The notes beneath the pieces are model-generated. The model ran no database searches. It was not told the DNA's origin and saw only the letters and a program-made list of their open reading frames with translations. Both the position numbers and the translations under genes were made by a program. Positions 8,317-19,454 of a stretch of 37,690 nucleotides of DNA are shown here, one piece after another (the stretch's first letter is position 1; each line of letters starts with the position of its first letter). Source of the stretch: Bacillota bacterium (GTDB lineage Bacteria > Bacillota > Limnochordia > DTU087); assembly GCA_012518315.1 (NCBI GenBank), contig JAAYSL010000162.1, forward strand, positions 1-37,690. The letters run 5' to 3'.

Positions 8317-9456
8317 CTACAAAAGAGCCTCTTCCGCGGCCTTCACTCCTATCCCTAACCCAACGGCAACACCAGCTTTATGCAAAGCCATCTCTAACGC
8401 GGCCATGGCCGTGATTACATCCAATTCACTACAGTAACCCATATGCCCGATGCGTAGAAGCTTGCCCTTTAGCTGTCCCTGACCACCGGCAAAGGTAACA
8501 CCCAGTTCTTTTTGCAGGATCTTAGACAAATCACTAGCCCCGACCTCCGTCCCGGGCAGTATAGCTGTCACCGTATGGGAAGCCACGGAATTATCCGCCA
8601 AGAGCTTAAGCCCCAAAGCCCGAGCCCCTGCCCGAGCGGCCTTTGTCATCCGAGCATGCCTCTGGAAGACATTGGTCAGCCCTTCGGTTAAAATCATATC
8701 AAGGGCTGCATCAAGACCGTAGAATAGAGATACAGCCGGGGTCCAAGGGGTATTTTTCTTTTCGAAACTTTTCCGAGCTTCAAGTAAACTGAAATAGAAC
8801 CTGACTCCGTGGTTAGCCTCAATCACAGGCCATGCCTTGGGACTGACACTAACTAGAGCAAGGCCTGGGGGCAGCATCAAGGCTTTCTGGGAACCGGTCA
8901 CTATAATATCCACATGCCACTCATCAGTACGAATATCCATGGCCCCCATACTGCTAACGGCATCTACCAGAAGCAAAGCCTCGGTATTAGCCAGATAGTT
9001 GCCCAGGGCGGCTATATCATTGGTGACGCCTGTCGATGTCTCATTGTGGGTAGCTAGTACTACCTTGAATGGCCCTTCTTTTTCAAAGACCTGGATCACC
9101 TGATCCATGTCGAACGTGGTCCCCCAAGGGGTCTCTATTTTCGTCACCACCCCACCATAGGCGCTGGCAATCTTGGCAAAACGCTCACCAAAGTTACCGG
9201 TGACAAGGGCAAGCACTCGATCACCCGGGGCTACTGTATTGGCGATGGCAGTCTCCATCCCACCAGTTCCCGAAGTGGTAAGCACAAATAGATCGTTTGC
9301 GGTTTGAAAAACGAGCTTAGCTTTCGCCACAATTTCCCCGTGAAGCTTGGCGAACTCTTCACTGCGGTGCCCCATCATCGGTCGGCCCATAGCCGCTACT
9401 ACCTGTGGTGGTACGGGAGTTGGCCCCGGTGTGTAAAGATAATTCTTATCTAGCAT
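8317..9456 (-). CDS. Class V PLP aminotransferase (alanine/serine-glyoxylate or phosphoserine type)
   Basis: This 379-residue protein is of the AGXT/serine-pyruvate aminotransferase family. Recognised parts are LYTPGPTPVPPQV, MMGHRSEEF, TTSGTGGMETAI, VDAVSSMGAMDI and the PLP-lysine region VTGSQKALMLPPGLAL. In many Bacillota this family sits beside serA and can act as the phosphoserine or phosphohydroxypyruvate aminotransferase; a glyoxylate-to-glycine role is the other choice. The reading frame stays open upstream into the leader, but that part is riboswitch RNA. I set the start at ATG 9456 because AAGGGGG lies 9 bases before it; the ATG at 9465 touches the SD. The glycine riboswitch ties its expression to glycine. 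Confidence 0.9.
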   Translation of the reverse strand: MLDKNYLYTPGPTPVPPQVVAAMGRPMMGHRSEEFAKLHGEIVAKAKLVFQTANDLFVLTTSGTGGMETAIANTVAPGDRVLALVTGNFGERFAKIASAYGGVVTKIETPWGTTFDMDQVIQVFEKEGPFKVVLATHNETSTGVTNDIAALGNYLANTEALLLVDAVSSMGAMDIRTDEWHVDIIVTGSQKALMLPPGLALVSVSPKAWPVIEANHGVRFYFSLLEARKSFEKKNTPWTPAVSLFYGLDAALDMILTEGLTNVFQRHARMTKAARAGARALGLKLLADNSVASHTVTAILPGTEVGASDLSKILQKELGVTFAGGQGQLKGKLLRIGHMGYCSELDVITAMAALEMALHKAGVAVGLGIGVKAAEEALL

Positions 9457-9477
9457 ACAATGCATCCCCCTTAAAGT

Positions 9478-9506
9478 AGAAAAGGCCAAGCTATCACTGC
9501 TTGACC
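9478..9506 (-). terminator. Terminator-type expression platform of the glycine riboswitch
   Basis: On the minus strand GGTCAAGC (9506-9499) pairs with GCTTGGCC (9491-9484), with one U-G pair and a 7-base loop, followed by TTTTCTACTTT. It ends just before the SD of the aminotransferase, placing an attenuator between aptamers and gene. Confidence 0.75.
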
Positions 9507-9539
9507 TGGTTAAATGACAAAAGAGAATATTTGACGATA

Positions 9540-9726
9540 TCCTCCCCTGTCCTTTTGCCTGAGAGATTAACCCCAAGGGGCTTGCTCCTTCGGCGCCTGA
9601 TGACCAGGTCTCTCCAGAGGTCTGTCCCGTTACAGTTTCTGTGTCAACACACACCTGAGAGTTTGAGGCCTGACTAGCCCTTGCCCCTTCGGTAGGATAA
9701 AGCTCCTTTTTCTGTAACGCTCATCC
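9540..9726 (-). promoter_or_regulatory. Tandem glycine riboswitch
   Basis: Read on the minus strand, two consecutive aptamer-like units carry the glycine-riboswitch hallmarks. Unit 1 has TACCGAAGGGGCAAG, then AACTCTCAGG, closed by P1 arms CGTTACAG (9719-9712 side) and CTGTAACG (9635-9628), then GGGACAGA. Unit 2 has CTGGAGAGACC, GCGCCGAAGGAGCAAG, TCTCTCAGGCAAAAGGACAG and a P1 closed by CCTC/GAGG. The two-aptamer arrangement with a short linker is typical. A perfect promoter lies upstream and a terminator hairpin downstream. Known glycine riboswitches are mostly ON switches for glycine cleavage genes; here the target is an aminotransferase-serA pair. Confidence 0.9.
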
Positions 9727-9903: not shown

Positions 9904-11460
9904 ATGGGCAATCCCTCTACAGAGTACATCCTAGGTGTTGACTGCAGCACCAGTGGAACCAAGGCCTGTCTTTGGGATCTAGGTGGGACTCTCATCGCCA
10001 CTGGCACATCGCCACATTCAATTCATCGTCCCTACCCTGGCTGGTCAGAGCAGAATCCCACCTGGTATGATGCACTAATTCAAGCCATCCATCGGCTATT
10101 TACTCAAACAACGATTCGGCCTCATCAAGTGTCAGCTATTGGCATCACTCACCAAAGACATACTCTCGTCCCAGCGGATCAAGACTATAATCCCCTGGGA
10201 TCAACGATATTGCGGAATGATGTGCCCTTCCAGGCGGAAATCAATCTCTTGGCAACCCATATTGGTAAAGAAACCCTTTACCAAGCCACTGGTATGCCAC
10301 CTGGGCCATGGCCCTTGGCAAAGATCCTCTGGCTGCAACATCACCAGCCAGGCCTTTTTGCCCAAGTACACAAATTCCTTTCGGTCCACGATTACCTCGT
10401 ATACCAGCTCACAGGCGAGCTTACTACTACGGAGAGCTCGGCCTCTGCCATGGGGTGTCTTGATATACTCCACCGAAGAAGATGGGCAGCATCCATTCTC
10501 ACCACTCTGAAGATTCCTGTTGAGAAATTCGTACCTTCCATTCAACCAGCTGGCAAGATGCTTGGAACCGTCACCCCGGCCGCGGCCAAGATGACGGGGC
10601 TTAGCCCTGGCACACCGGTGATCGCCACTGCCACAGACCAGGTATGTGGCTCCCTGGCGGTGGGGCTAACCCATCCACATCAGGTAGGTATCAATAGCGG
10701 CACTTCATTGACCTTCCAGACCTTATCAACCGAACCAGCCTTTGATCCAGACTGTCACTATATCTTGGAGATTAGCCCACTTGGTTATTATGCCCCAGAG
10801 ACAGTGGTCTTTAGCGGAGTATCGGATTTACTCCAGTGGTATCGCCGGGGCTTTGCCAAGGCCGAAGAGAGGCAGGCAGAGCTTACCGGTAAGTCTATCT
10901 GGGAGATCATCGTGGATGAAGCAGCCTCTGTTGACCCGGGTTGTGAGGGATTAATGCTATTTCCCTTCTTTCAAGGAGTACAGGCCCCCTACTGGTCCAA
11001 TGATGCCAGGGGATTGCTTATTGGTCTAACCACTACCCACACCAGACATCACGTAGCTAGGGCAATACTGGAGGGCCTTGCCTATGAATCTCGCCGACAG
11101 ATTGAGTTTTTAGAATTCGGCACTGGCACCAATATCCGGGAAATCCTGCTCTACGGTGGGGCAGCGCAAAACCGCTTGTGGTGCCAAACCCTAGCCAATA
11201 TCACCGGTCGCAGGGTGAAGGCCTCTACAGATATCGAGGCCTCAGCCTTAGGAGCCGCAATGTGCGCAGCCTGGGGGATTGGAAGCTTTCCCACTCCTGA
11301 GTTAGCTGTAGTGACCATGGGCGCTCCTTACAAAAGCTTTACTCCTGTAGAGGCCCTCTATGCATTTCATGACCGGCTTTACAAAGGCGTATATGAAGTG
11401 TTTTACGACCGAATTCAGGATCTCGATTCACTACGTACCAGCTTAGCCGCCACCTGCTGA
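9904..11460 (+). CDS. FGGY-family carbohydrate kinase (xylulokinase-like)
   Basis: This 518-residue two-domain sugar kinase phosphorylates a sugar, sugar acid or polyol with ATP. The N-terminal ATPase-fold domain begins ILGVDCSTSGTKACLWD, and GITHQRHTLVPAD matches the sugar-binding segment. The catalytic Asp is likely in IATATDQVCGSLAVG. The second domain has GLMLFPFFQGVQAPYWSNDARG and LYGGAAQNRLWCQTLANITGRRV (adenosine site), near xylulokinase, but the substrate is not fixed. The ATG at 9904 is preferred over ATG 9898 because GGAGG (9892-9896) lies 7 bases from 9904 but only 1 from 9898. It is the only plus-strand gene here, and its 3' end overlaps the opposite-strand CPBP-like gene by 18 bases. 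Confidence 0.87.
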   Translation: MGNPSTEYILGVDCSTSGTKACLWDLGGTLIATGTSPHSIHRPYPGWSEQNPTWYDALIQAIHRLFTQTTIRPHQVSAIGITHQRHTLVPADQDYNPLGSTILRNDVPFQAEINLLATHIGKETLYQATGMPPGPWPLAKILWLQHHQPGLFAQVHKFLSVHDYLVYQLTGELTTTESSASAMGCLDILHRRRWAASILTTLKIPVEKFVPSIQPAGKMLGTVTPAAAKMTGLSPGTPVIATATDQVCGSLAVGLTHPHQVGINSGTSLTFQTLSTEPAFDPDCHYILEISPLGYYAPETVVFSGVSDLLQWYRRGFAKAEERQAELTGKSIWEIIVDEAASVDPGCEGLMLFPFFQGVQAPYWSNDARGLLIGLTTTHTRHHVARAILEGLAYESRRQIEFLEFGTGTNIREILLYGGAAQNRLWCQTLANITGRRVKASTDIEASALGAAMCAAWGIGSFPTPELAVVTMGAPYKSFTPVEALYAFHDRLYKGVYEVFYDRIQDLDSLRTSLAATC

Positions 11461-12204
11461 GAAAGTCTCAAACCTCTGGCGCTTTCCCCAGTATATAGCC
11501 ACAGCCATGAATCCCAAAAGGCCTATACTGCGAGGCCACGGCGAAGTGATGGGCACGATAGCCTGAGCTCCAATCAAGACATCAAAAAGAGCACCAACCC
11601 CCCAGAAAAACGGGTAGATAATGAGAACACTTTTGGCCAACCGACAGACACTCCCATACATGATACCTACTATAAATAGCTTCAGGAATTCTGACTGGAA
11701 ACCCATATGATGAAAGGAGTAAAAAACTGCTGTAAGCAACACAGCCAAAACCGTACCAAAGGCCCTCTCAAAAAGGGTAAGCTGAAAACCATAGAAAAAC
11801 ACCACCTCGAAAATGCCTGCCAACATGACATACAAAGCACATCCCAAAGTATGGCTGTCAATGCTTAGCTCCCAAGGTCCCCGGCCCAGTCGCAGACTAC
11901 CGAAGAGCATGCCTCCCAATCCTAGATTTAGCAACACATACATTTGCCACCGCTTTATGTGCAAGCCAAAGTCCGCCAACCGCCAGTGGCGATGCTGAAT
12001 AAACCAGAGGGGAAAAAGTGTGCCTACAAAAATTAGCATACCTACATCACGTAGCAGCATGCTCGCTAAGGTCCCACTGGCCGCCAACCTCCCCATTAGT
12101 GCCGAGAGGACTAGAATCGTGAAACCGGATCCAAGAGCTACCAGGGTATCTAAGGATGGACTCCAGCAAAATAGTGCTTTAGGTGGCCTTTCCATGGTCT
12201 CCAC
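11443..12204 (-). CDS. CPBP-like intramembrane protein, degenerate protease motif
   Basis: This 253-residue protein has about seven to eight hydrophobic helices. The segment AGIFEVVFFYGFQLTLFERAFG resembles motif 1 of CPBP (CAAX protease/bacteriocin-processing) proteins, normally EExxxR, but the second Glu and the Arg are replaced (EVVFFYG). FYSFHHMGF matches the His motif 2. Catalysis is therefore doubtful. The start is GTG 12204, 8 bases after GAAGGAG. It follows the aldolase gene by 135 bases on the same strand and may be the last gene of the biosynthetic block, possibly in immunity, transport or product handling. That role is inferred only from position. Its end overlaps the convergent kinase. 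Confidence 0.65.
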   Translation of the reverse strand: METMERPPKALFCWSPSLDTLVALGSGFTILVLSALMGRLAASGTLASMLLRDVGMLIFVGTLFPLWFIQHRHWRLADFGLHIKRWQMYVLLNLGLGGMLFGSLRLGRGPWELSIDSHTLGCALYVMLAGIFEVVFFYGFQLTLFERAFGTVLAVLLTAVFYSFHHMGFQSEFLKLFIVGIMYGSVCRLAKSVLIIYPFFWGVGALFDVLIGAQAIVPITSPWPRSIGLLGFMAVAIYWGKRQRFETFSAGGG

Positions 12205-12339
12205 TCATCTCACTCCTTCACACTTCCGCTTGGCTCCCGTTCACCGCCTCTTGCTGTGCAGGCATTGGCTCCTCTCCGAAACCTCATTACCCATCTACCA
12301 TTACTCATCTCTCGGCCTCCATACCAGGTTTAGAGTGAA

Positions 12340-13116
12340 CTAGGCCAGATGTGACTTGGGCTCATAACTATCCAAGATGTGACGTATCTGCCGGGTCAAG
12401 CACACCGGATGTTCATTTTGGAACAGGTTGCGGCCAATAGCCACTCCCCTAGCCCCTGCCTTGACTGCTCCTTTGATAGAACATAATATATCATCGGCAG
12501 TATTCAACTTGGGTCCACCAGCGATAACCACTGGGATCCTCACCCCTGCGACCACACCACTGAAACTCTCGGGGTCGCCTGTATAGTTGACCTTCACCAT
12601 ATCTGCTCCTAGCTCTTCCGCTACTCGAGCTGCGTGGGCAATCTTCAGGGGATTATATTCACCTTCTTTTGAACCATCTCTTACATACATCATGGCCAGG
12701 AGCGGCATCCCCCAGGCATCACAAGCCTCTGCCACTTGGCCTAGATCCTTTAACATAGACGCCTCCTTGGGACTACCTAGATTGACATGCACTGAAATGG
12801 CAGTGGCTCCCAGCTTAACAGCATATTCAGCTGTGCTGACTAGTTCCTTGCGGTTTGGATCTGGGGCTAGATCTGTTGACGCCGATAGATGCACGATCAA
12901 CTCATAATTGACCACTCCTGTGGCAATCAGGTGCCGGGCCTGACCTTTATGCACCAAGATAGCATCAGCTCCACCGGCCACAACCTGTTTTACTGTATCG
13001 CAAATATCTTCTAGTCCCAACACCGGTCCCAATGACACCCCATGATCCAAAGGCACGATCAGCAATCTATGGGAGTGTCGGAATAGTCTTTGCATACGTA
13101 ACTGTTTCCCTGTCAT
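12340..13116 (-). CDS. DhnA/ADH-synthase-like class I aldolase (GriI-like)
   Basis: This 258-residue TIM-barrel protein is of the family that includes archaeal 2-amino-3,7-dideoxy-threo-hept-6-ulosonate synthase and GriI, which joins aspartate semialdehyde to dihydroxyacetone phosphate on the way to 3-amino-4-hydroxybenzoate. Expected active-site residues are present: Asp24 in VPLDHG, Tyr144 in MMYVRDG and the Schiff-base Lys175 in MVKVNYTG. Phosphate-loop segments VIAGGPK and GVAIGRNLFQ follow. It lies 12 bases after the DHQS-II-like gene, with which it forms the GriI/GriH pair. The archaeal shikimate entry route uses the same two families. The ligases and amidohydrolase in the same gene train favour aminohydroxybenzoate formation. 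Confidence 0.9.
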   Translation of the reverse strand: MTGKQLRMQRLFRHSHRLLIVPLDHGVSLGPVLGLEDICDTVKQVVAGGADAILVHKGQARHLIATGVVNYELIVHLSASTDLAPDPNRKELVSTAEYAVKLGATAISVHVNLGSPKEASMLKDLGQVAEACDAWGMPLLAMMYVRDGSKEGEYNPLKIAHAARVAEELGADMVKVNYTGDPESFSGVVAGVRIPVVIAGGPKLNTADDILCSIKGAVKAGARGVAIGRNLFQNEHPVCLTRQIRHILDSYEPKSHLA

Positions 13117-13128
13117 ATCCCTCTTCCC

Positions 13129-14250
13129 TCACCTTTCCAGAATGGTCTCCTCAACCTTGATTCCCACGTGCCGACCAGGACTATCTAAATATGCCAGGAG
13201 CTCATCGCCGGGACGAACTAGCGTAGCATTACGCGGCTTCCCATCTACACCCATCACCCGAATATGCCAGTCATCCTGCAAGACTACATTTAGTGGTTCG
13301 TCTTCCACCAGACCCTGAATTAGGAGCAATGGGCGAACTTCAATCTTTACCCGGCCCACTACTACTTCCCGAACCTCCCCCTTGGCACTGACCGCCATGA
13401 CCCGGCTTCCTACCGCAAGGTCAGTAATATACTCAACTCTGTCATCAAACATCCAGACATAAGAGTGAACCGCACCGGCATTGACCCGAAAGGGCCGTAG
13501 ATTCATATACGGCAGAAAATGCGTCTCAGAGCAAACTAAGATCCCACCAGAGGAGGTCGACCCCACCAGTATACCTTCATCTTGACTTAAGAGACTGGCC
13601 GTATCAATACAACCCCTAAACCCCATGCCGATGTGCCGGACTTCCTCTACTACCAACGGCAAGAGCTTGATCCTCCGATGCCCAGCCTCTAGCAAGTGCC
13701 TGCTGACACTTATGATCTCGGGAATCTCATCAGTGGAAAGCAACACCCCATCACTACCTCGTTCCATGACACCTAATGCCACCTGCATTCCTTCCAGGGT
13801 AGATTCTCTTTTGAGCAAAATGGTATCACTCCCCTGGAGGCGAGCAAGAATCAATTCCAGCGGTATATTGGTGGGAAGATCAAACTCCACAACCGCATAG
13901 TCGAAGTGCCTCACTGTCTGCCAGGCCGCTTCTAGGGCCTGGCGGCTATCGATGGCCAGGAAAATGCAGGTAGGGTGCCCCAGAGTCTGAGCTTTAGCTA
14001 AGAGCTCTGGCTGGGTAGACATGACAATGTCTTCAGGATCGAGACCCTCCAATTCTGCCTCCCGTTCTATGTCAACTACCCATTGAGTTCGCAAAGGTAG
14101 ATTCAGGATGTCTCTTTGCTGTCGAGTCACCAACACTGTGTTAAGAGCCGAGCTAGCAAAAGCACCCCAGAACCCCTGATGTTCCAGACTGACATTCCTT
14201 CCATCAAGCCAGACATATTGGCTTCTTCCTTGATAATCAACTGCTTGCAT
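13129..14250 (-). CDS. 3-dehydroquinate synthase II family protein (GriH-like)
   Basis: This 373-residue protein belongs to the archaeal-type DHQ synthase II family, which also includes GriH, the enzyme that converts the GriI product to 3-amino-4-hydroxybenzoate without NAD. Conserved parts seen are FRGCIDTASLLSQDEGILVGSTSSGG, RPFRVNAGAVHSYVWM, VVVGRVKIEVRPLLLIQG and the end DSPGRHVGIKVEET. Family members usually have GRHFG at that last site. The start is ATG 14250, 8 bases after GAGGTGA; an in-frame GTG at 14262 lies within the SD region. It sits between the ligase upstream (37-50 bases) and the aldolase downstream (12 bases). It could instead serve aromatic amino acid synthesis, which I think less likely. 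Confidence 0.88.
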   Translation of the reverse strand: MQAVDYQGRSQYVWLDGRNVSLEHQGFWGAFASSALNTVLVTRQQRDILNLPLRTQWVVDIEREAELEGLDPEDIVMSTQPELLAKAQTLGHPTCIFLAIDSRQALEAAWQTVRHFDYAVVEFDLPTNIPLELILARLQGSDTILLKRESTLEGMQVALGVMERGSDGVLLSTDEIPEIISVSRHLLEAGHRRIKLLPLVVEEVRHIGMGFRGCIDTASLLSQDEGILVGSTSSGGILVCSETHFLPYMNLRPFRVNAGAVHSYVWMFDDRVEYITDLAVGSRVMAVSAKGEVREVVVGRVKIEVRPLLLIQGLVEDEPLNVVLQDDWHIRVMGVDGKPRNATLVRPGDELLAYLDSPGRHVGIKVEETILER

Positions 14251-14299
14251 GCTTCTTCTCACCTCTACGGCAGTTTTCTTTAGTTAGCAAAACCCGTTT

Positions 14300-15562
14300 T
14301 CACAAACGCAGACTCTTCGTATATGCTTTGGCGTCAAGTTCTTCTGTAGAATAGATGTAACGGGGTTTACCCACCTCACCGATGTCCAGGAGAGCTTGGG
14401 GATCAAAAAAGGTGCCTGGTGGAACAAGGCTGATCTGGATCGGTACTCTATCTTGCCCCCCAAGAATCGTCAGTGCCTCTTGGGACTTTGTGTCCTGCCC
14501 AAATTCTCTGCTTTCAACGACGAAATGCAGCCCAAAAGGCTCTAGCGGCCCTACTACCCATAGACCTTTACCGGGAACGTGCTGAATCATTGCTTCCAGA
14601 TCCCAAAGATCAAAGAGATGTCCCGCTACCTGCAAACAGTCTTCCTGCCTTCCCCGCACTTCCAATCTATACTGGGCACCACAGGGGCAGAGTTCCGGAA
14701 CCAACCGTGCTCTGTCCCCGGTCCAATAGCGCACCAAAGGCGTGGCCCGCCGCTTTAGAGTCGACACTACAAGGTAGCCAATATTACCTGGCCTCACTGG
14801 TGTTTCCCGATCCTCTTCCAGGAGCTCAAAAACGAAATCACTCAAAACCGGATGGAGCCTTCCGTAGAGACAGTCCAGGGCAGCTGCACCGATTTCGGTC
14901 ATGCCATAATTGTCAAAGACTGGTGCATTCCAGATCTCCTGAATCAGTTTTCGGCGCTGGGGACTAAGTGGCTCTCCCGCCGAACAAATGGCCCGCAAGC
15001 CAGGAAAATCCCGAGCCGGGGACAGCCCCATAAGCTCAGCACATCTAGCTAACAGGATGGCCTGCAGGGGTAAAGCCGCTAACACAGTCACATCCAGATA
15101 CCTCATCATATTTACTATCCGAGGAAAGGGACTGATGGTGGAACGAGAGCTGGCCGGTATGACACAAGCGCCCCGCAACCTAGCTGCCAAATGAAAGGTA
15201 TGGGCCACCTGTGATATGGCATAGGGATAGCGAATCAACACCGTATCCGCCACCGATAGATTAACTCCACAAGTGTTAATCTCGTCCGCAGTATCCAGTA
15301 GATCGTCCTCAGCAAGCCAAATGGACACAGGTTTTCCTGTTGTCCCGAAAGACTCATGATAGGCAGCCACTTCATGCTTGGGCACTGCCAAAAAGCCATA
15401 CGGTGAGTGTTCTCTAAGGTCTGCCTTGGTTGTCAAAGGGATCTGGGCAAGTTCCGACAAGGAACGCAAAGGCTTATCCGGAAGCCTGCCACTATAGAAG
15501 CTAGCCCTGCGAGCCCGGCTTAACATCTGATTTGCCAAATTCACATCTCCGCCAATGATCAT
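14300..15562 (-). CDS. PaaK-like adenylate-forming ligase 1
   Basis: This 420-residue protein resembles phenylacetate-CoA ligase and related enzymes that adenylate an aryl acid. The ATP phosphate loop is SFGTTGKP (residues 71-78), the adenine/aryl motif is DNYGMTEIG (218-225), and the ribose Asp is Asp283 in VRYWTGD. CPCG (292-295) is the PaaK-type cysteine pair, here shortened. The N-terminus is shorter than canonical PaaK, and the C-terminal lid is divergent (GKPRYIYS). The substrate is unknown; an aminohydroxybenzoate is the natural guess from the adjacent GriH/GriI-like genes. It is 23 bases downstream of the amidohydrolase gene. The ATG at 15562 has only a moderate SD (GGAAGGG). Confidence 0.85.
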   Translation of the reverse strand: MIIGGDVNLANQMLSRARRASFYSGRLPDKPLRSLSELAQIPLTTKADLREHSPYGFLAVPKHEVAAYHESFGTTGKPVSIWLAEDDLLDTADEINTCGVNLSVADTVLIRYPYAISQVAHTFHLAARLRGACVIPASSRSTISPFPRIVNMMRYLDVTVLAALPLQAILLARCAELMGLSPARDFPGLRAICSAGEPLSPQRRKLIQEIWNAPVFDNYGMTEIGAAALDCLYGRLHPVLSDFVFELLEEDRETPVRPGNIGYLVVSTLKRRATPLVRYWTGDRARLVPELCPCGAQYRLEVRGRQEDCLQVAGHLFDLWDLEAMIQHVPGKGLWVVGPLEPFGLHFVVESREFGQDTKSQEALTILGGQDRVPIQISLVPPGTFFDPQALLDIGEVGKPRYIYSTEELDAKAYTKSLRL

Positions 15563-15585
15563 CTACACTACGCCCTTCCAGATAC

Positions 15586-16341
15586 TCAGAGCCCCACCAG
15601 TTCTTGGATGTTCTCGCCAAGGATCCGCTCCAGCCCACCCTCAGAGAGTTCTAACAAGAGGATTTTGGCTAACTCCACCCTGGGATGAGAAAGTGGGAAT
15701 TCCGAACCAAAGATGAGTTTGCTGGCCCCGGCTTTCTCTACAGCCTGCTGGATATGAAGATAGCTACCAGTTGACGTCTCTAAGAAGAAATTGTCTAGCT
15801 CTACTGCTGCCTGCAATGCATCCTGATCGGCAGGCCCAAAACCCATGTGACCTAAGATGAAATTGGTCTTGGGAAACTGTCGGGCCAGTGATACATACCG
15901 CTCGGTAGAAGCACCGGGGTTATAGAGAACATGGCTATATACCGGCAGTCCATAATCTCCACAAATTCGGGACAGCTCCGCCACAGCTTTGCTGGCAAAG
16001 GAGAACTGATGACTCATGGGAGAAAGTTTCAATCCCCGGAACCCTGCATCAAAGGCCTCCACCAGACTCTGGCCCACACCACTTGCATGGGGGTTTAGAC
16101 AGCAGAAGCCGATGAGACTACCTTTGGCCCTTTCTGTGGCCTTTTTTACATAGGCATTGTCCGGCGGCTCAGTACTCGGTTGTGCCCGCCCAATGATATA
16201 ATCTGTCATGCGGCGCACATCGAGAGTCCCGCCCGGGACAGCAACACCAACCTCAATCCCAACCTCCTGTAGCACTTCCAGATATTCATCCACACTACCC
16301 ACCTCAGACTTGGAGATGTGAGCATGGCCATCAATGATCAT
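15586..16341 (-). CDS. Amidohydrolase-superfamily protein (amidohydrolase 2 type)
   Basis: This 251-residue TIM-barrel metal-dependent hydrolase has the HxH pair at His6/His8 (DGHAHI), GLKLSP (Lys105), His137 (YSH) and His165 (LGHMGFG). The final metal-site motif reads FGSEFP, so Glu214 replaces the usual Asp. In nataxazole and closoxazole biosynthesis, amidohydrolase-superfamily members close the benzoxazole ring, which makes this gene's position between two PaaK-like ligases notable. Known alternatives are amidase or decarboxylase activity on an aromatic acid. ATG 16341 has AGGAGG 7 bases upstream. It lies 11 bases after ligase 2 and 23 bases before ligase 1. Confidence 0.85.
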   Translation of the reverse strand: MIIDGHAHISKSEVGSVDEYLEVLQEVGIEVGVAVPGGTLDVRRMTDYIIGRAQPSTEPPDNAYVKKATERAKGSLIGFCCLNPHASGVGQSLVEAFDAGFRGLKLSPMSHQFSFASKAVAELSRICGDYGLPVYSHVLYNPGASTERYVSLARQFPKTNFILGHMGFGPADQDALQAAVELDNFFLETSTGSYLHIQQAVEKAGASKLIFGSEFPLSHPRVELAKILLLELSEGGLERILGENIQELVGL

Positions 16342-16352
16342 GTGGGTGCCTC

Positions 16353-17678
16353 CTATTCCTTCACCACTCGAATAGTCTTGCTTTTGGGGCGCCGAATACT
16401 TTCCACTAGCTCAAACGCGCAAGGGACTCCTACTGAGAATTCCATTTGACTGGCTAGCCGTTCAGCTAATCCTGGGCTCTTTTCCACCCCAGGAGCTATT
16501 TCCACTCGCACCTTAAGGGTACTGGCCCCCGGTGGAACCACAAATTCGTACCAATTACCTACCTCTGGCAACCTCATCAGGAATTCCTCAAGGTAAAAGG
16601 GAGAGAACTCTACTTGACCGATCTTGACCTGGTCAACTTGTCGGCCCCGCAAGAATAGGCGGGGAAGGGCCACACCACAAGTACAGATATCTGGATCGGT
16701 ATACCCTAGATCCTGTGTCCGGTAGCGGATTAAGGGTGTATCCCAACGCAAAAGGCAAGTAACAACGATCTCGCCAATCTCACCTGGCTCCAGTACCCGA
16801 TCTGTACTGGGATCAACTATCTCCACCAGGACATGGGACATGGGGATATGGTAGCCCCGGTGGTGATCACACTCGACACCCATGCCCCCACCTTCTAGGG
16901 AGCCATAGTAGAAATTGGCCTTCGTGCCCCAGATGCGCTCAACTCGCTCTCTAAAGGCAAAGGAACAGCCCTCTCCTGTGAGCCAGACACGCCTCAGGGG
17001 TAAAGTCCCAAGGTCAAAACCGATGGATACAGCCGCTTCTGCCAAGGCCATGGAGTAGGAAGGTGTGGTTATGATAATGGTCGGTTTTAGATCTTGCATC
17101 ACCCGCACCGTTTTCTCCGGAGTGGAATAAGCCCCAGCCTTACCTGCTGGAATTACCGTTGCCCGACACCCAGACATGAAAACCTTATGAAAAGCAAGGC
17201 CCGAAGAGCTCATCTCATAGGGTAAGGCATTTAGACAGATATCCCCCGGCCGGACATCTACCAGGTAAGGTAGAGCCGGGGTCAGCTCATTTAGGTAGAA
17301 ATCCTGCCAAGTCCAAGGGACATAGATCTCCTTTCCACTGGTAGTCCCGGTAGCCACATGCACCAAAGCAATATCGTCTTTAAAACAGGCGAGGGTGATC
17401 CATGGATCCTGTCGCAGCTCATCTTTAGTTGTGAAAGGGAGTCTGCTTACATCCTCGAGTTCCTCAATATCCTCGGGGACAACTTGAGCAGCCATCAGCT
17501 TCGCCCGATAGAATTCTGAGCGCCGAAAGGCTCTAGTGACTACCATACCTAATGCTTCCAGCTGAAAGGCTCTTAGTTTCTCTAGGGACATGTTCTCAAC
17601 GGTAGCATCAGGCTCAAAGTATTTCTCTAACAGTGGTGGTTTTTCCATTCTTCGCAGCTGATCGAAAAAGCTAGACAT
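16353..17678 (-). CDS. PaaK-like adenylate-forming ligase 2
   Basis: This 441-residue protein is of the phenylacetate-CoA ligase-like family and is clearly different from ligase 1. The phosphate loop reads ATGTTSGKE (109-117), the YGxTE region is YYGSLEGGG (257-265), and the ribose Asp is Asp323 in RYRTQDLG. CTCG (332-335) precedes PRLFLRGRQ. The C-terminal lid is complete and ends RRPKSKTIRVVKE, with candidate catalytic lysines. It would activate a carboxylic acid as acyl-AMP and perhaps CoA thioester. Two ligases in one cluster suggest two different acids, or activation and condensation by separate enzymes. It follows the repeat protein by 54 bases and has a GGTGAG SD. Confidence 0.87.
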   Translation of the reverse strand: MSSFFDQLRRMEKPPLLEKYFEPDATVENMSLEKLRAFQLEALGMVVTRAFRRSEFYRAKLMAAQVVPEDIEELEDVSRLPFTTKDELRQDPWITLACFKDDIALVHVATGTTSGKEIYVPWTWQDFYLNELTPALPYLVDVRPGDICLNALPYEMSSSGLAFHKVFMSGCRATVIPAGKAGAYSTPEKTVRVMQDLKPTIIITTPSYSMALAEAAVSIGFDLGTLPLRRVWLTGEGCSFAFRERVERIWGTKANFYYGSLEGGGMGVECDHHRGYHIPMSHVLVEIVDPSTDRVLEPGEIGEIVVTCLLRWDTPLIRYRTQDLGYTDPDICTCGVALPRLFLRGRQVDQVKIGQVEFSPFYLEEFLMRLPEVGNWYEFVVPPGASTLKVRVEIAPGVEKSPGLAERLASQMEFSVGVPCAFELVESIRRPKSKTIRVVKE

Positions 17679-17732
17679 ATCTTCTCACCATCCCAAATCA
17701 AATTGTCTTGTGGCACACTCTATCGACATTGA

Positions 17733-19454
17733 TCAAGGATTAATCTCCTGGGCTACAGCATCTGCCTTTGTGGCTTCTCCAATTCGCCGATAAGCCGTCT
17801 CGAGATCAAGCAGCATGGTAGCAAATTCAGCAGGAGTTAGAACTTCCGCTTTCTTCTTGTTCGTTCTGGCACCTTGATACCATTGCTTGACAAACTCAAA
17901 GTCTTCCACAGCTATAGTGGTCAGGTGAAAGAGGGGTTCAGGCAAGCTATAGCATAGATATCCTCTCAAGAGTCTGATTGTCGGGTTTTTCGGTCGCCGC
18001 CTGAGCGCATTGTTGATTAGCATTAACCCTTGAACTGCATTACCGAACATAGTGGATGAGTTCCGGGAGCAGCGACCAGTTAGAGCCACAGCACTACCAT
18101 AGTAGGCCTCGATCAATGGATCTTTAGGGTTAAGCTGATGTGCTTTTTCCAGGCATGCCCGGGCTGCTTCGGCAGCTTGTGGATCATCATCTATGGCCTG
18201 ATTGTGTAGACGAATACCCAATTGGAGCAAATCAGGTAGAGCCTCAACCTGGGGCAAAGCTATAGGCTCTTTGGGCAAAGCCTTATCCAACTGAGTCCTG
18301 ATTGTTTGGGCATAGGGAGAATTCGAATCCAGGGTCAAAAGCCGTTCCCAGGTATCCTTAGCCTCTAGCAACATCCCTAGCCGTAGATACGAATCGCCTA
18401 GACAATAAAGGATCTTTCGATACTCCCCGGCATCGATCTCTGTGCTACCAGACTCATATTGGGAAGCTAGGTAGGTGAGATCGGTGATAGCCGTAGTTGT
18501 GCGAAAAAAGAACTGTTCCGGCAGCCGGTAACTATGGGCGGCCCTGATGCGGCGAAGCTCAATGCTTGTCGGATCCTTACGAATCGCCTCTTCCATCATG
18601 GCAATAGCCTGTATGGCCTGGGAGAACATGGTTCCCCCCTCAGGGGCATAGCGACCCATTAGGGAAAGACTGCTACTATACAAACCTGTAATGGTGGGAT
18701 CCTCCGACCAAGTACTATGGGCTTCACTGAAGATTTCGTGGGCTTTTTGGGCCGCGGCCACATCACCCGCTTCACCTAGATGCAATAACCGCTTGCCTTC
18801 TTTAAGCACAGCATCCCGCCGGGCAACCTCCACCGGCTCCTCTTCGAAACCCTCGATTTCAATCCCCTCTGCCCTCAAGGCTCTTTGCACAGTCCTATTC
18901 GGCCCTAAGGCAGCCAATCGATGCCATGTAGCTAAAGCTGCTCCTTCATTGCCAATATTCATATGGGCTTTACCGAGGTCGAAAAGTAGTCGCCAGTAAA
19001 GCTCCTGGGCGAACACACTATTGTCTTTTTCATACTGAGCAATGAGAAAACTAAAATCGTTTATGGCCACTTGTGTCCGATGGAAATACACCTCCGGCAG
19101 CCGGTAATTCACATAGGCTCTGACGATGCGGACAGTGACCTCTTCCTGATGGGCATCGACGACCTCGTCAAGGAGCTTGATTCCCTGTAGCACTCTGGCA
19201 AACCGCTCCTGGGGATCGATACTATCCCGACCGACAAGTGCAAGTGAGCTGCCATAGTAAGCCTCGGCTTCAGGGCTTTCTGGGCGAAGTTGCCGTGCCC
19301 TTTCCAGCCAACCTATAGCCAGCTTTGTAGCGGTCTTTTCCCCCCGAACTGCGAGATTGTGAAACTCTATGCCCTTAGCCAATGCTTCATCGAAAGGTAT
19401 GTCTTCATTTATTTCCAGTAAGGCCAACTCAGTACTGCTATGATTGTAAGTCAC
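17733..19454 (-). CDS. Triplicated ~190-residue helical-repeat protein, first gene of the biosynthetic block
   Basis: This 573-residue protein has no signal peptide or membrane span. It consists of three copies of a ~190-residue helical module. Each contains a TPR-like start (YYGSSLALVGR, YSSSLSLMGR, YYGSAVALTGR), a long helix ending in a mark with LPE at 119-121, 311-313 and 504-506 (YRLPEVYFHRT, YRLPEQFFFRT, YSLPEPLFHLT), then a D-F/L-x-F/Y helix and a second TPR-like pair. The spacing of 192 and 193 residues shows internal triplication. I do not recognise a named family. It may scaffold or bind a partner. The start is GTG 19454 with a GGGGGAG SD 5 bases away. It heads the same-strand train of ligases and aldolase. 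Confidence 0.82.
   Translation of the reverse strand: MTYNHSSTELALLEINEDIPFDEALAKGIEFHNLAVRGEKTATKLAIGWLERARQLRPESPEAEAYYGSSLALVGRDSIDPQERFARVLQGIKLLDEVVDAHQEEVTVRIVRAYVNYRLPEVYFHRTQVAINDFSFLIAQYEKDNSVFAQELYWRLLFDLGKAHMNIGNEGAALATWHRLAALGPNRTVQRALRAEGIEIEGFEEEPVEVARRDAVLKEGKRLLHLGEAGDVAAAQKAHEIFSEAHSTWSEDPTITGLYSSSLSLMGRYAPEGGTMFSQAIQAIAMMEEAIRKDPTSIELRRIRAAHSYRLPEQFFFRTTTAITDLTYLASQYESGSTEIDAGEYRKILYCLGDSYLRLGMLLEAKDTWERLLTLDSNSPYAQTIRTQLDKALPKEPIALPQVEALPDLLQLGIRLHNQAIDDDPQAAEAARACLEKAHQLNPKDPLIEAYYGSAVALTGRCSRNSSTMFGNAVQGLMLINNALRRRPKNPTIRLLRGYLCYSLPEPLFHLTTIAVEDFEFVKQWYQGARTNKKKAEVLTPAEFATMLLDLETAYRRIGEATKADAVAQEINP

Follow-up and report, generated by a model that had tools for sequence, protein, structure and literature searches.

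Most of the benzoxazole pathways known so far come from scattered antibiotic producers. Among the closest described systems are the closoxazole clusters, clxA-E in Clostridium cavendishii and pfxA-E in Pyxidicoccus fallax, each encoding two ligases (ClxA and ClxC; PfxC and PfxA), an amidohydrolase, a DHQS-II-type synthase of 3-amino-4-hydroxybenzoate (3,4-AHBA) and an aldolase of the ADH synthase type (PMC12118335). In vitro, PfxA, PfxB and PfxC suffice to make closoxazole A from 3,4-AHBA (PMC12118335). The nataxazole pathway (NatL2/NatAM) starts from 3-hydroxyanthranilate instead of 3,4-AHBA, and the similarity between ClxD and NatAM is only about 18% (PMC12118335). The same aldolase and DHQS-II families are also found in the grixazone pathway (GriI/GriH), in bagremycin and ferroverdin synthesis (BagB/BagC/BagE), and in archaea.

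The window analysed here, meaning the whole stretch of 37,690 nucleotides, belongs to the genome of an uncultured anaerobe (assembly of 2.72 Mb in 281 contigs, 97.65% complete). It carries a cluster whose gene content, protein families, conserved residues and co-occurrence lead us to infer, with a probability of roughly 0.7, the reactions and product of a closoxazole-type benzoxazole pathway. The following scheme can be proposed. The aldolase and the DHQS-II protein would use aspartate semialdehyde and a triose-phosphate donor to make 3,4-AHBA. The ligase LIG1 would adenylate an aryl acid for coupling to 3,4-AHBA. The product of this coupling would probably be an unstable phenyl ester, which the amidohydrolase would then close into a benzoxazole. 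A second ligase, LIG2, would attach a further aryl acid. During these steps, a TPR protein may hold ligases and amidohydrolase close to each other, and the labile ester would then undergo ring closure before it could rearrange to a dead-end amide.

Gene content and layout of the locus

Seven ORFs, all on the minus strand, run from 19454 down to 11443, exactly where the initial annotation had placed them, and domain searches return the families that it had named. In transcription order these are:

17733 to 19454, minus strand: TPR-repeat protein of 573 aa, the operon's first gene; three units of about 190 aa; recurrent pathway partner
16353 to 17678, minus strand: LIG2, PaaK-like adenylating ligase with a C-terminal KTxRVV lysine motif; putative ClxC-like role in a second ligation
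15586 to 16341, minus strand: amidohydrolase (Amidohydro_2, 6.8e-24); putative ring-closing enzyme
14300 to 15562, minus strand: LIG1, ClxA/NatL2-type ligase with partner-chain Lys and Zn ligands kept; putative aryl acid dimerisation
13129 to 14262, minus strand: DHQS-II-like protein (DHQS PF01959, 4.2e-93); putative 3,4-AHBA synthase of the GriH/ClxB type
12340 to 13116, minus strand: DhnA-type aldolase (DeoC/LacD) of the ADH synthase family, GriI/ClxE/MJ0400 type
11443 to 12204, minus strand: CPBP (Rce1-like) membrane protein with a degenerate protease motif

The first six genes are tightly packed, with gaps of 54 (TPR-LIG2), 11 (LIG2-amidohydrolase), 23 (amidohydrolase-LIG1), 37 (LIG1-DHQS-II) and 12 bases (DHQS-II-aldolase), in agreement with the 11 to 54 bases given before. 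The CPBP gene follows more loosely, 135 bases after the aldolase. No further tailoring genes are seen in this operon, which sets it apart from the grixazone and bagremycin/ferroverdin clusters, and a reading as a defence system found no PADLOC match. Elsewhere in the window, a glycine riboswitch aptamer (9537-9627, minus strand, 68.5 bits) lies upstream of aminotransferase/serA genes. The aptamer and the 5' end of the ORF listed as 8317-9654 overlap, and this ORF probably starts at a later ATG.

The two ligases, the amidohydrolase, the DHQS-II-type synthase and the ADH-synthase-type aldolase equal the gene set of clxA-E and pfxA-E, to which the window adds the TPR and CPBP proteins; for ClxB to ClxE, the likeness to the window proteins is one of family and gene content rather than of alignment. 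The gene set had been called non-canonical. This does not apply to the paired ligases, which are canonical in closoxazole clusters (PMC12118335), but the repeat protein is indeed unusual, as is the CPBP protein. The latter adjoins the cluster recurrently in families f1, f27, f88 and f101. In its alignment, the canonical EExxxR is replaced by a conserved FEVxFFYGF and the HH motif (HHxGFQ) is kept. Since these two motifs stand in place of the canonical pattern, the protein is probably not an active protease, and it would probably serve as a membrane accessory in self-protection or export.

Putative precursor genes and the shikimate route

The aldolase scores above the TIGR01949 cut-off for ADH synthases (309 against 299). 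Its closest solved relative is MJ0400 (2qjg, 2.3e-75), and Asp24, Tyr144 and Lys175, annotated as intact, do lie within blocks that are aligned and conserved between the two. The DHQS-II protein falls under every NCBIfam subfamily cut-off and is thus a member of none of the named subgroups; a sequence search found no solved structure for it. The operon holds an ADH-synthase-type aldolase and a DHQS-II-type 3,4-AHBA synthase as a pair at family level only, and the comparison with GriI and GriH stands at the same level. Matches to the bagremycin/ferroverdin families all remain below cut-off, at 229 against 800 bits for BagE/FevW, 238 against 750 for BagC/FevH and 231 against 500 for BagB/FevI. 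In trees that took in homologues from Streptomyces, Klebsiella and a Sinorhizobium plasmid, and left out archaeal DHQS-II, both proteins group with other Bacillota cluster members, away from Streptomyces; some comparator branches are very long, and deep placement is unsure.

The same pair of families serves the early shikimate route of archaea, the group to which MJ0400 belongs. An equivalent role here, with the aldolase and the DHQS-II protein supplying 3-dehydroquinate, would suit an aldolase that exceeds the ADH synthase cut-off. However, the pair shares its operon with ligases and an amidohydrolase, and the canonical enzymes are not missing: aroB and two DAHP synthases are encoded elsewhere in the window's genome, and aroB is present in all 21 genomes checked that have the cluster or its TPR-ligase module. 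Because these canonical enzymes are present, a shikimate role is highly improbable and was rejected, which leaves the initial assignment to another pathway in place.

Ligases, amidohydrolase and putative ring closure

The best solved relative of LIG1 is 9s3l (E 1.4e-67), followed by AjiA1 (6wuq) and NatL2 (6siw). In 9s3l, S118, P120, K140, M198, Y219, T222, N226, D281, H301 and K393 match the residues given for ClxA (PMC12519233), and the structure is therefore taken to be ClxA. LIG1 is 35.6% identical to it and joins ClxA/NatL2 in the tree with a support of 100/99, apart from PaaK. It retains S118, Y219, T222, D281 and the partner-chain trans-acting lysine K393 of ClxA, and its C-x5-H and CxCG motifs are the counterparts of the NatL2 zinc ligands (PMC7204872), so that both the trans-acting lysine and the zinc ligands are common to LIG1 and NatL2. 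LIG2 is a second PaaK-like AMP ligase by profile search and by tree, where it is separate from LIG1 and on the PaaK side; it is compared with ClxC at family level.

Two ClxA residues are not kept. K140 is Ser in LIG1, and N226, which in ClxA contacts the para-hydroxyl of 3,4-AHBA (PMC12519233), is Ala in LIG1 and Thr in most relatives. The loss of this contact residue suggests that the donor acid of LIG1 may differ from that of ClxA, and that the cluster may make something other than closoxazole itself. The benzoxazole-type cluster first proposed thus holds in outline, with its 3,4-AHBA-type precursor pair, ClxA/NatL2-type ligase and amidohydrolase, but closoxazole as such is uncertain.

The ring-closing candidate belongs to the amidohydrolase superfamily and has the metal-binding His residues, and it is 41% identical to the homologue in a cluster that has no TPR protein (L051). 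His6, His8, His137 and His165 are common to all 14 homologues compared. The metal-site residue of the superfamily is usually Asp, as in 3cjp, whereas Glu214 occupies this position in 14 of 14 homologues, which suggests an altered chemistry. Ring closure is the putative role on the grounds of genomic context and of ClxD/PfxB, rather than of sequence alignment to either. The predicted model (mean pLDDT 90) finds its nearest solved folds in the uncharacterised 3cjp, in several aryl decarboxylases (dihydroxybenzoate decarboxylases) and in ACMSD.

These last folds could also fit an aryl decarboxylase or a hydrolase that closes no ring, in which case the cluster would make amide or ester oligomers of 3,4-AHBA, or a bagremycin-like ester. 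ClxA itself yields dimers and trimers (PMC12519233), and BagE/FevW is the best NCBIfam match of LIG1, but with a score so far under the cut-off the match is a distant one. Moreover, a single conserved module keeps the amidohydrolase and both ligases together, which is also the case in the closoxazole clusters, and the invariant Glu points away from the usual chemistry. Oligomers or a simple ester are accordingly considered quite unlikely, and a closoxazole-type benzoxazole is preferred.

Distribution and a possible role of the TPR protein

In an even draw of 399 Bacillota genomes, DHQS-II is found in 19 and the TPR family in 32. The TPR family occurs in 18 of the 19 genomes with DHQS-II against 14 of the 380 without (Fisher's test, 1e-21); as related genomes are not independent, the fairer measure is the family count, the 18 genomes spanning eight families (f1, f19, f27, f41, f46, f61, f88 and f101). 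Where examined in these genomes, the TPR gene has the ligases and the amidohydrolase as neighbours, or DHQS-II where the contig ends. The sole DHQS-II genome without the TPR family, G233, has at L051 (8378-15291) three PaaK-like ligases, an amidohydrolase, DHQS-II and an aldolase, and this locus could be a different closoxazole relative.

Nineteen DHQS-II loci were taken from named or MAG contigs. At most of those with enough flank, TPR, LIG2, amidohydrolase, LIG1, DHQS-II and aldolase genes are found together, and the module appears in this order in Heliobacterium chlorum, H. mobile, Filobacillus milosensis, Aquisalibacillus elongatus, Brevibacillus dissolubilis and MAGs. In Thermincola-labelled genomes its parts are rearranged, with LIG1 farther downstream. 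Because many genomes repeat this gene set, mostly with its order unchanged, the arrangement is not due to chance. Ligases and amidohydrolase consistently accompany the homologues, and the consistent absence that would have spoken against the initial annotation is not seen. DHQS-II is present in 7/9 heliobacterial genomes and in 8/11 genomes of the window's own family, and the TPR family in 6/9 genomes of Thermincola's family. The gene trees broadly follow taxonomy, which suggests an old, largely vertically inherited trait, with losses.

Several other features accompany the relatives. L113 (G094) and L114 (G399) have TPR-LIG2-amidohydrolase-LIG1 modules, to which L113 adds a lone aldolase, and no DHQS-II was found in either assembly. 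Importer-type ABC transporters adjoin the cluster in L027, L028, L053, L060, L113, L114 and L022, being of the branched-chain amino acid type, or of the NMT1/THI5 type in L022; there are none in the window. In L027 (14545-15096; no Pfam match for this copy), L028, L022 and L019, the cluster is adjoined by the gene of a small, conserved protein (176-199 aa). Lys/Asp-rich or Tyr-rich low-complexity ORFs are also found near the cluster (e.g. L021:10497-10904). Some neighbours, low-complexity proteins resembling the spore-coat type, prompted a search for a link with sporulation, which was rejected: SpoIVA is present in 18/19 cluster genomes and in 321/380 others (Fisher p 0.33), nor are complete promoter patterns for sigma-E or sigma-K enriched upstream of the operons. 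The bare CATA-N3-T motif is commoner there than in plain shuffles (27 against 14), a control that ignores dinucleotide content.

Three units of about 190 residues make up the TPR protein, and relatives often have an extra single-unit gene adjoining. Its predicted model contains helical hairpins only, and the fold search returned only generic TPR proteins and scaffolds. Since PfxA, PfxB and PfxC need no further protein to form closoxazole A in vitro, the TPR protein is not needed for the chemistry and is probably non-catalytic. The first ligase's ester is unstable, and its rearrangement yields an amide used by neither PfxB nor NatAM, although for ClxD an amide substrate is reported (PMC12118335; PMC7204872). 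A scaffold that passes on this ester would thus make sense, and we tentatively suggest that the TPR protein may hold the ligases and the amidohydrolase together. Such a scaffold is not required, however, since the known clusters function without it. The family is not exclusive to the pathway either, as homologous units also occur in unrelated settings: 14 of the 32 genomes with the TPR family have no DHQS-II, and most of these hold it in unrelated contexts. In L118, L119 and L120, single-unit members outside the pathway have a 715-aa protein and a small ORF as neighbours; where scanned, in L119, these are a flavin amine oxidase and a PadR regulator.

With the same benzoxazole-type chemistry, the TPR protein could instead be a regulator, a carrier or an immunity factor, and the product a cell-associated physiological compound. 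The broad agreement of gene trees with taxonomy, the high retention in heliobacteria and in Thermincola's family, and the importer-type ABC genes near some relatives would fit this. Yet the Pfam scan found no DNA-binding domain in the protein, nothing ties it to product binding, and no sporulation link was found, which makes such a role somewhat unlikely.

What is new here is the recurrent TPR protein together with the breadth of conservation. A literature search found no report linking a TPR protein to this pathway; the original 2022 description of closoxazole, in which some of these relatives may already figure, was outside this search. In its fullest form, a TPR-scaffolded aryl-benzoxazole pathway, widely and largely vertically inherited, would serve physiology rather than antibiosis in anaerobic and spore-forming Bacillota, heliobacteria and Thermincola among them, a proposal that is speculative and, taken whole, rather unlikely. 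Finally, at least eight families share a closoxazole-type module in which an extra TPR protein is constant, and most of the heliobacterial genomes sampled have it, which suggests a conserved function.
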